A DNA stretch of 64,000 nucleotides from Prochlorococcus sp. AG-347-E23 (GTDB lineage Bacteria; Cyanobacteriota; Cyanobacteriia; PCC-6307; Cyanobiaceae), in the NCBI GenBank assembly GCA_003281685.1, contig QCBH01000001.1, forward strand, positions 62,001-126,000. Reading direction: 5' to 3'. Made by a program: the position numbers and the translations under genes. The notes under the pieces are model-generated. The model was given only the letters and a program-made list of their open reading frames with translations. It had not been told where the DNA came from and did no database searches. This document shows, piece after piece, positions 22,898 to 26,490 of the stretch (its first letter is position 1; the number at the start of each line of letters is the position of its first letter).

Positions 22898-23995
22898 ATG
22901 AGTAGTAGTTTTGGAAAAATTTTTCGTGTTAGTACTTTTGGAGAATCACATGGTGGTGCAGTAGGAGTTATCCTTGATGGATGTCCCCCTATGTTAAAAG
23001 TAGATATAAATCTTATACAAAATGAATTAGATAGGCGCAGACCTGGTCAAAGTGACATTACAACACCCCGAAATGAAGAAGATAAAATTGAAATATTAAG
23101 TGGGATAAAGGAAGGGTTAACACTTGGAACTCCAATAGCAATGTTGGTAAGAAACAAGGATCAAAGACCAGGAGACTATAATAATTTAGAACAGGTATTT
23201 AGACCCTCTCATGCAGATGGTACATATCATCTAAAATATGGAATTCAGGCAAGTTCTGGCGGTGGAAGAGCCTCTGCAAGAGAAACAATTGGGAGAGTAG
23301 CTGCTGGTTCTGTAGCAAAACAACTATTAAAAAGCTTCTGTAACACTGAAATACTATCTTGGGTAAAGCGTATACATGATATTGATTCTGATATAAATAA
23401 AGAGAAGATTTCTCTCAAAAAAATAGATTCTAATATTGTTAGATGTCCTGATGAAAAAGTATCAACAGAAATGATCGAGCGAATTAAGGAATTAAAGCGT
23501 CAAGGAGACTCTTGCGGCGGAGTTATTGAATGTCTAGTAAGAAATGTGCCATCTGGTCTTGGAATGCCTGTTTTTGATAAATTAGAAGCTGATTTAGCAA
23601 AGGCCTTGATGTCTTTGCCTGCCACGAAGGGCTTTGAAATAGGTTCAGGTTTCTCTGGAACTTATTTGAAAGGAAGCGAACACAATGATGCCTTCATTAA
23701 ATCTGATGATATTAGGAAGTTAAGAACAATATCTAATAATTCTGGCGGTATACAGGGAGGAATAAGTAATGGCGAAAATATTGAGATGAAAATAGCTTTT
23801 AAACCTACAGCAACTATAGGGAAAGAACAGAAAACAGTAAATGCTGAAGGTAAAGAAGTACTTATGAAAGCAAAAGGGAGACATGATCCATGCGTTCTAC
23901 CAAGAGCAGTTCCTATGGTTGATGCTATGGTAGCTTTAGTACTTGCTGATCATTTACTTTTAAATCAAGCTCAATGTGGCTTAATGAATAATTAG
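22898..23995 (+). CDS. aroC: Chorismate synthase
   Basis: This 365-residue protein catalyses the last shikimate pathway step, EPSP to chorismate, with reduced FMN. Family signatures are present: [20 protein letters not shown] at the N-terminus, [31 protein letters not shown], and [18 protein letters not shown] near the C-terminus. It starts at an ATG 59 bp after the psbA terminator and ends next to the eda remnant, which runs on the opposite strand. Confidence 0.98.
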
Positions 23996-24029
23996 TAGTT
24001 TTGTTAAATAAATTATATTTATCTTTTAT

Positions 24030-24615
24030 TTAATTATTTTTGAGCCCTAAACATATTTTTGGATCAAATTTTTTATTTATAATTCCTTTATCTCCAATCA
24101 TGATTGCTTTATATCCTAAAGATTTATAAGTTTTGACAACATTGATTGATAGTCCTCAAGCAGTAATGAAATCAATATTTTTATAGTTGAGTGTATCTAT
24201 CTACCTATCTTTACTTTTTATTGGGTAAATTTTGATATTATTATTAATTCTAGGAATTAATAAATAATTATTTACTGCGCATAATTGAAAAGATCTTCAT
24301 CCCAAAATTTTATCATTGAAAAATTTAATCCAATTTTTAAGGAATCTTCTATTGATTGCTTATTAACTATGGAGGCAAAGCCTAAATTAATTCTTGGATA
24401 TTAATTTTGCTTTGGGTACAAAATCTGACTAATTTTCGTTTTTAAGACCAGCTTATTTCAATATTCTTAAATTCTAATTTTACTAAGCTTTCTAATTCTT
24501 CAAAAAATAAATTTCTTATAGAGGTATTTGAGTAAATATTATCTTCAGGTTTTATAAGTAAAAAAAGACTCTGTTTTCAGGAACTCTGAAAAAGAGAATC
24601 TTCTTTATTAATCAT
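24030..24615 (-). pseudogene. eda: Decayed 2-keto-3-deoxy-6-phosphogluconate aldolase (eda) gene
   Basis: No intact frame spans 23996-24636, but minus-strand fragments in shifting frames line up as one decayed protein. In order they are MINKEDSLFQSS-stop (ATG at 24615), LEFKNIEISWS-stop, RINLGFASIVNKQSIEDSLK, IGLNFSMIKFWDEDLFNYA, VNNYLLIPRI, IKIYPIKSKDR-stop, and NYKNIDFITA-stop-GLSINVV, ending in SLGYKAIMIGDKG and GLKNN-stop at 24030. Order and content fit a KDPG/KHG aldolase as found between aroC and ftsH in related strains (from memory). I see at least three in-frame stops, two or more frameshifts and probably an internal deletion after the LLIPRI segment. The normal gene would act in the Entner-Doudoroff route. 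Confidence 0.75.
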
Positions 24616-24636
24616 TAAAAATTCAAACTTTCACAC

Positions 24637-26490
24637 TTAAATATAGTTTGCGACTTTTACTTCTGAGCGGTTAAGCAAATCTTGAATATCTTCAGTATCT
24701 ATAGTTTCTCTTTCAATTAGCATTTGAGCCATTTCGTCGAGAACAGTTCTATTATCTGATAAAACTTTTGTAGCCCTCTTATAGGCGACATCAACAAGTT
24801 CTGAAACCTCTACATCAATTGTGGCAGCAGTGTCTTCAGAGAAGTCTCTTGTAGAACTCATATCTCTTCCGAGAAACATTCCACCTTGAGATTGACCTAG
24901 AGCGACTGGACCTATTTTGTCACTCATGCCAAATTTAGTGATCATTTGTCTGGCCACATTGGCAACCTGTTGTAAATCATTTGAAGCTCCGGTTGTTACC
25001 TCTTCTTCGCCATATACTATTTCTTCAGCAACTCTTCCACCAAGAGCTACAGCCATTTGATTTTGAAGGTAAGAACGTGAGTAAAGACCAGATTCCATTC
25101 TTTCTTCACTAGGAGTAAAGAAGGTTAAACCTCCAGCTTGACCTCTTGGAATTATTGAAACTTTTGCTACGGGATCATAATCAGGCATTAATGCTCCAAC
25201 CAGTGCATGACCAGCTTCGTGATAAGCAACTAATTCTTTTTTCTTATCACTGATTACTCTATCTTTCTTTTCTGGACCAGCCATAACTCTTTCAATAGCA
25301 TCACCGACTTCGTCATTACTGACTTTATCTAAATCTTTTCTGGCCGCCAGTATTGCTGCTTCATTTAAAAGATTAGCTAAATCTGCGCCAGTAAATCCTG
25401 GTGTTCTTCTAGCAACTTTATCTAAATCAACGTCTTTTGAAAGAGTTTTATCTTTAGCATGAACATTTAATATCTGTAATCTGCCAGCGTAATCTGGTCT
25501 ATCAACTGTTACCTGTCTATCGAATCTTCCAGGACGCATTAAAGCTGAATCTAAGACATCGGGTCTATTGGTTGCAGCTACTATTATTATTCCGGAATTA
25601 CCTTCAAAACCATCCATTTCGGTTAGGAGTTGATTTAATGTTTGTTCTCTTTCATCATTTCCTCCGCCCATACCAGCACCTCTTTGTCTTCCAACTGCAT
25701 CTATTTCGTCAATAAAAACAATACAGGGAGCATTCTTTTTAGCTTGTTCAAAAAGATCCCTAACTCTGCTAGCTCCAACTCCTACAAACATCTCTACAAA
25801 TTCTGATCCAGATATTGAGAAAAAAGGTACACCTGCTTCTCCAGCTACTGCTTTTGCTAGTAATGTTTTTCCTGTACCAGGTGGACCAACAAGAAGAACT
25901 CCTTTAGGAATTTTGGCTCCGACTGCAGTAAATCTATCTGGGCTTTTAAGAAAATCTACAACTTCAGTAAGTTCTAATTTTGCACCTTCAACACCAGCAA
26001 CATCTGAAAAGGTTACTTGTGTAGATGGTTCCATTTGCAATCTAGCTTTGCTTTTGCCAAAACTCATGGCAGGGTTGCCACCTCCAGAATTACCACTTTG
26101 GGACCTTCTAAAAAGAAAAAATAAGCCTCCAATCAAAAGTACTGGGAAAATTAAGCTACTTACAGCTTGTTGCCATGGATTGGATAATTTTGTAGGAGTT
26201 ACAGCAATATCTACATTATTCTCGGTAAGTATTTTTAATAAATCCTTGTCAGGAGCTAAATTGACCTCAGATCTACTCCCATCATTTTCAACAACTTGAG
26301 CTGTGGCATTATCTGGAGATATTAGGACTCTACTGATTTCTTTATCTTGTACTGCCTCTATAAAATCACTATATCTCAAGGTTTTTGTAGAACTTTCAGT
26401 ACTAGGTTTATCAAAAACTGAAGTACCAATGAAAATTACAGTAATAACAGCTAGGACATAAAGTCCTACGTTTCTCCAACGTTTGTTCAC
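24637..26490 (-). CDS. ftsH: ATP-dependent zinc metalloprotease FtsH
   Basis: This 617-residue membrane protease has an N-terminal membrane helix, a lumenal/periplasmic domain, a second helix (about 110-128), an AAA+ domain (Walker A GPPGTGKT at 202-209, Walker [17 protein letters not shown]) and a zinc peptidase domain with HEAGH. In cyanobacteria such proteins degrade damaged D1 during photosystem II repair; proximity to psbA and psbO fits but is not proof. It lies 46 bp downstream of the ATP sulfurylase gene on the same strand. Confidence 0.97.

Follow-up and report, generated by a model that had tools for sequence, protein, structure and literature searches.

The aroC-ftsH Spacer Holds the Remains of an Aldolase Gene

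In the window (the whole 64,000-nucleotide stretch that was analysed), the stop codons of the intact aroC and ftsH genes delimit a spacer of 641 bp (23996-24636), in which no long open reading frame was present, the longest one listed having 39 codons. The remains of a gene for a KHG/KDPG aldolase-like protein (eda) occupy most of this spacer, and the features of the locus are collected in Table 1.

Table 1. Features of the aroC-ftsH locus, in positions of the window.
Feature	Position	Strand	Remarks
aroC, intact flank	22898..23995	+	365-aa ORF; 1056/1095 bases identical to G231
eda pseudogene (KHG/KDPG aldolase-like, PF01081 family)	24030..24615	-	former start region at 24615, former stop at 24030
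Site of 39-base deletion within the eda pseudogene	24241..24243	-	gap placed at about 24242 in the alignment with G231
T-rich run, shortened in the window copy	24560..24570	-	nine T in 127/132 intact loci
ftsH, intact flank	24637..26490	-	617-aa ORF; 1185/1250 compared bases identical to G231

The genome to which the window belongs (G000) is represented by an assembly that totals 1.50 Mb over 31 contigs and is 93% complete. The public records closest to it by AroC are those of Prochlorococcus. Used as a DNA query, the spacer found matches in 226 of 266 genus genomes at E ≤ 0.001, and the closest one, in genome G231, reached 87% over the whole query, end to end (E 7e-252). At the same place, G231 carries an open eda-like gene of 208 codons whose protein falls within PF01081, so that the spacer presents full-length homology to a functional orthologue in the same position. 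The similarity search against Eda that had been proposed as a check matched the G231 protein to the spacer by tblastn at 114 and 79 bits. Chance similarity was rejected, since only 4 of 1000 dinucleotide-preserving shuffles matched at E ≤ 10, the best of them at 22.7 bits against 114. A search of 23900-24700 for structured RNA yielded no match to Rfam at E values of 1 or below.

The global alignment of the window and G231 spacers showed 596 identical bases out of 638 aligned and seven indels, which in the window copy amount to +2, -2, +1, -1, -1, -1, and -39 bases. When read in the old register of the G231 gene, the window copy is interrupted by four stop codons, 16 of its codons are missing or gapped, and despite this decay 155 of the 192 readable residues agree with G231. 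The original prediction of a decayed eda between aroC and ftsH, with at least three stops, frameshifts, and an apparent internal deletion, was thus borne out by the full-length match and by these lesions: the deletion is real, the 39 bases concerned occurring in every other eda copy shown that is not itself deleted there, and both of the fragments that had been singled out, SLGYKAIMIGDKG and GLKNN followed by a stop, are present in the spacer. The seven indels, four stops, and 39-base deletion exceed what chance or simple error would leave. Moreover, the 25 substitutions private to the window copy fell 10, 11, and 4 times on the first, second, and third codon positions, against 92, 67, and 117 summed over 95 intact copies (third positions versus the rest, Fisher p 0.01), a comparison that is supportive and not strict because third positions vary more among relatives and are therefore undercounted as private.

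The Only Copy Found, at Its Ancestral Place

The assembly of the window's genome was searched for another eda, as had been suggested, and none was found: at 93% completeness, it gave no match to the PF01081 profile, and tblastn with the G231 protein at E ≤ 10 returned only three overlapping pieces, all at the aroC-ftsH spacer (24033-24506, 24272-24601, and 24271-24615, contig coordinates minus 62000). At the order level, aroC, eda, and ftsH occurred together in 28 of 30 loci, and this place is therefore ancestral. Because the assembly is 93% complete, a second copy elsewhere retains a very slim chance, namely that the dead gene is one of two, with a functional eda in the 7% that the assembly lacks; against it stand the single PF01081 match in each of the 150 genomes with a match and the synteny, which marks the dead copy as the one in the ancestral place.

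Frequency and Stages of eda Loss in the Genus

The G231 protein found a tblastn match in 216 of the 266 genus genomes, and in 82 of the 87 that are at least 90% complete. The remaining 50 genomes were rejected as losses in nearly all cases, since 46 of them lack aroC as well and, with the region missing, are uninformative. Among these 50, aroC was found only in G071, G189, G198, and G248, and in G189 and G248 the locus ends at a contig edge and is likewise uninformative. G095, searched alongside, has aroC, and its own match (33% identity, weak, and on a different contig) was not counted as eda. The counts exclude six further genomes in which a contig end interrupts eda (G049, G114, G123, G194, G242, and G263); an estimate from the numbers of contigs gives about six interruptions of this kind as expected by chance.

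Among the 209 readable loci with eda remaining, 192 are open, 10 carry multiple lesions (the window copy, G031, G038, G059, G084, G129, G137, G166, G172, and G235), six carry a single lesion (G013, G019, G034, G052, G181, and G206), and one is unclear. In three others (G071, G095, and G198) both flanks lie on one contig and eda is absent, leaving spacers of 72, 148, and 100 bp, respectively. Clear losses, that is, multi-lesion and absent copies, thus make up 13 of 212 readable loci, and the states grade from copies with a single frameshift, via copies with many lesions, to loci reduced to a spacer of 72-148 bp. These counts were taken from table rows, with the suspicious and fetched loci alone re-read as DNA, and the lesions of G059 are less certain because its assembly is fragmented (380 contigs) and contaminated (4%). 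A second sample of 80 named loci, selected for the similarity of their AroC irrespective of eda and overlapping the genus-genome sample, comprised 73 intact loci, six broken ones, of which L096, L117, and L125 are single-lesion copies, and one locus without a readable flank. The eda copies of the cultured strains MIT 9314 (L120) and MIT 9201 (L137) are open.

Several loci presented peculiarities of their own. The single-contig genome G206 (L222) has one frameshift near codon 175 of eda and was counted as single-lesion, and the single-contig genome G204 (L219) has an odd amino end of eda and is the copy counted as unclear. In G232, two equal-scoring eda stretches lie about 1.3 kb apart (C1:113800-114491 and C1:115119-115810), owing either to local duplication or to faulty assembly. 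Near contig ends, the order of eda and aroC halves is inverted in L080 (G123), L083 (G049), and L076 (G194), which are probably amplification chimeras of single-cell genomes. As for phage-borne copies, none of 15 pattern-matched stretches in viral_contigs encoded a relative in a single-protein query, which reaches close relatives only.

The nine-T run lies in the first codons of eda, and it has eight or ten T in five lossy haplotypes (L022, L029, L045, L052, and L064), in which the frame is otherwise nearly open, L052 also having a stop. A role of this run as a dedicated switch is weakened by the presence of 12 runs of at least nine A or T in the 64-kb window and by the draft state of the affected genomes. 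In principle, the copies altered at the run only (L022, L029, L045, and L064), being otherwise open, could be rescued, and the gene would then be partly used, with slippage at the run or internal restarts giving a working protein. For the window copy this is scarcely credible, since its several shifts, four stops, and 39-base deletion put it beyond rescue and its private changes do not favour third positions.

Losses Beyond the Genus

At the order level, a PF01081 match was found in 115 of 120 genomes, the exceptions being the window's genome, G270, G277, G328, and G330. In G270 (L227) and G277 (L223), which belong to another picocyanobacterial genus and are assembled as one contig each, aroC and ftsH are separated by a gap of about 50 bp, and their state is a clean deletion of eda. 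G330, from another genus, also has no aroC match and was not counted as a loss. In G328 (L225), about 1.35 kb without an eda match (positions 150-1505) lie beside aroC where eda and ftsH would be expected, and this stretch contains a 260-codon frame rich in Lys/Ala/Ser/Thr repeats, which we take to resemble a histone H1-type protein.

These deletions bear on the possibility that the lesions are artefacts of assembly or whole-genome amplification and that the real gene is open. The window's genome is indeed a draft of 31 contigs, the public records of its relatives are mostly single-cell assemblies, to judge from their titles, and single-base changes in the nine-T run belong to an error-prone class. 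Nevertheless, error is an extremely unlikely explanation of the window copy, in which seven indels, a 39-base deletion, four stops, and 25 private substitutions are concentrated in one gene between two open neighbours, and the deletion-only state occurs in single-contig genomes of a different genus as well.

Scattered Losses on the Tree of the Flanking Genes

A tree was built from the aroC and ftsH DNA of 121 haplotypes, and it is to be read as one of two genes, obtained by a short search and open to recombination. L007 (G063) and L032 (G231), both with intact eda, fall into one group with the window (SH-aLRT 97). The 18 lossy rows among the 121 (15 broken and 3 absent) demand at least 16 changes between the intact state and the rest, of which at least 12 are forced by well supported branches, and shuffled labels gave a mean of 16.9. 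Without five single-lesion rows, 13 of 116 rows are lossy and at least 11 changes remain. The lossy rows are therefore neither more nor less clustered than shuffled labels, which fits scattered loss and, for the single-lesion copies, random error as well. Since lossy loci were sought out, the tree counts events and not their frequency. A single loss may account for both G031 and G137, which are sister rows.

The loss had been proposed as a metabolic marker of this strain or clade. It can stand as a marker of the window's assembly alone; it is not a marker of a clade, because both rows closest to the window on the tree have an intact gene, and the losses are scattered. As in the genome streamlining described for Prochlorococcus in the accessible parts of PMC3940434 and PMC10837832, a single-copy metabolic gene was lost from a small AT-rich marine genome. 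Unlike one old genus-wide loss, the eda losses are scattered near the tips, with every stage of decay caught.

Constraint, Fold, and Substrate Residues of the Intact Gene

The median pairwise dN/dS among intact rows close to the window, in pairs that are not independent, was 0.318 for eda (600 pairs), 0.084 for aroC (261 pairs), and 0.010 for ftsH (555 pairs). Intact eda is thus weakly constrained in comparison with its two neighbours; it does something useful, because 192 of 212 copies are open and dN/dS is clearly below 1.

The protein of the intact relative scored 45.7 bits against the PF01081 cut-off of 27.8, which places it in the family. Its predicted fold (mean pLDDT 92.8) matched KDPG aldolase 4e38 in first rank (Z 23.4, rmsd 2.3, 199 aligned residues) and the E. 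coli structure 1fq0 with Z 20.9 and rmsd 2.7, also over 199 residues, so that fold and Schiff-base lysine together assign it to the KHG/KDPG superfamily. The sequence match to the E. coli enzyme was weak (1eua, E 0.0011), and with 58.6 bits the protein stays below the cut-off of 156.05 bits of the NCBIfam model for bifunctional Eda, TIGR01182.

The substrate residues of the E. coli enzyme are given in the accessible text of PMC5334617 as Glu45, Arg49, Thr73, Pro94, and Phe135. In 58 genus rows, among which some genomes appear twice and some copies are frameshifted, the equivalents of Lys133 and Glu45 were kept without exception, and all 58 rows have Arg49 replaced by Ser, Thr73 by Ser, Pro94 by Lys, and Phe135 by Tyr, leaving Glu45 as the sole one of the five kept. 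The change of Thr73 to Ser likewise occurs in the enzyme described in that paper. The replacement of Arg49 and Thr73 extends to 30 order-level rows, of which all 30 keep Pro94 and 29 keep Phe135. In summary, the intact relative resembles E. coli Eda (eda b1850, PF01081) in family, fold, Lys133, and Glu45, and differs from it in scoring below the TIGR01182 cut-off, in its replaced pocket, and in having no edd partner, whereas the window copy is dead.

The Entner-Doudoroff Route

A search for edd, the other check proposed for this genome, revealed a single TIGR01196 match at 269.4 bits, below the cut-off of 708.25 bits; the same cut-off was exceeded in none of the 101 genus genomes searched and in 2 of 14 in a control set. 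The sub-threshold match is likely a dihydroxy-acid dehydratase (IlvD/DHAD), judging from its score, its frame of 563-570 aa, and the account in PMC10847513, as far as its accessible text goes. The known confusion of IlvD/DHAD with Edd likely applies here, with one sub-threshold match per matching genome. According to the same part of that paper, DHAD is unable to replace EDD, and its presence therefore makes no pathway. The gene gnd is present. Neither a true edd nor a working eda was found in the 93% complete assembly of the window's genome.

The literature is divided, and it is cited here from the openly accessible part of each paper. True EDD is reported in only four cyanobacteria and EDA in all cyanobacterial groups listed, Prochlorococcus included (PMC10847513, 2024), and EDA was also noted in this obligate phototroph in PMC9424857. 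In Synechocystis, neither flux nor KDPG nor EDA activity was detected, and an eda mutant grew 15-20% more slowly in fluctuating light (PMC9034593). Proteomics of Prochlorococcus and marine Synechococcus gave no sign of the route, Eda being detected only in SS120 (PMC10100731). A review describes cyanobacterial Eda homologues as active aldolases of several specificities, with KDPG as a possible substrate, reports decreased photoautotrophic growth and other phenotypes of eda mutants, and discusses a role in 4-hydroxy-2-oxoglutarate metabolism (PMC11257934). On the other side, a genome-scale model of Prochlorococcus MED4 contains the complete route and sends daytime carbon through it (PMC7900632).

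The loss had been interpreted as removing the enzyme that ends the Entner-Doudoroff route, which some cyanobacteria employ in darkness. PF01081 membership and the predicted fold are compatible with this, as are the complete route in the accessible account of the MED4 model (PMC7900632) and the proposals on glucose use in papers cited by PMC10100731. It is nonetheless a very unlikely interpretation, and the results did not sustain it: edd over the cut-off was found in 0 of 101 genomes, the substrate site has replacements, and, in the available portions of these papers, EDD is described as absent, with neither KDPG nor flux in the cyanobacteria that were examined (PMC10847513 and PMC9034593), and the proteomes of Prochlorococcus show no sign of the route (PMC10100731). 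Because no edd passed the cut-off and these papers report no route activity, a working pathway was probably not cut.

Interpretation and Significance

The window copy is regarded, with a probability of about 0.88, as a unitary pseudogene, the single eda-like gene of its genome being dead at the ancestral place in one of repeated losses of a marginally useful aldolase. Small indels and substitutions would kill eda first, and deletion would later clear the remains. In a genus without edd, no Entner-Doudoroff route would rely on eda, whose use would then be marginal, and the evidence suggests a gene that is only weakly needed and does not complete a functioning sugar pathway. Against this reading stand the many open copies, the growth defects of eda mutants (PMC9034593 and PMC11257934), and the active aldolase homologues described in PMC11257934. 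The intact enzyme may catalyse a side reaction, for example on 4-hydroxy-2-oxoglutarate or oxaloacetate, instead of glycolytic KDPG cleavage. A more specific version, which we consider tentative and rather unlikely, would give the Eda-like enzyme a non-glycolytic job whose value differs by lineage or whose product can come from neighbouring cells. Lineages with and without the gene would then live side by side, and eda would be killed repeatedly near the tips, often first via slippage in the nine-T run.

The eda copy of the window fits the description of one among several independent losses better than that of a broken Entner-Doudoroff route or a clade marker. No report of eda decay within Prochlorococcus was found in the titles and abstract starts of the open-access journal papers searched. 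The use of the Entner-Doudoroff route by cyanobacteria, and the role of Eda otherwise, are disputed. That eda has been lost repeatedly in nature within a genus lacking edd argues against the model of PMC7900632 and qualifies the statement that all groups possess EDA (PMC10847513), each as given in its accessible text. If only drift on a nearly useless gene were at work, this would be an ordinary pseudogene. The matched strains that keep or have lost eda offer material for probing the real role of the enzyme, and if the non-glycolytic reading is true, the genus would constitute a natural knock-out series for the function of cyanobacterial Eda.
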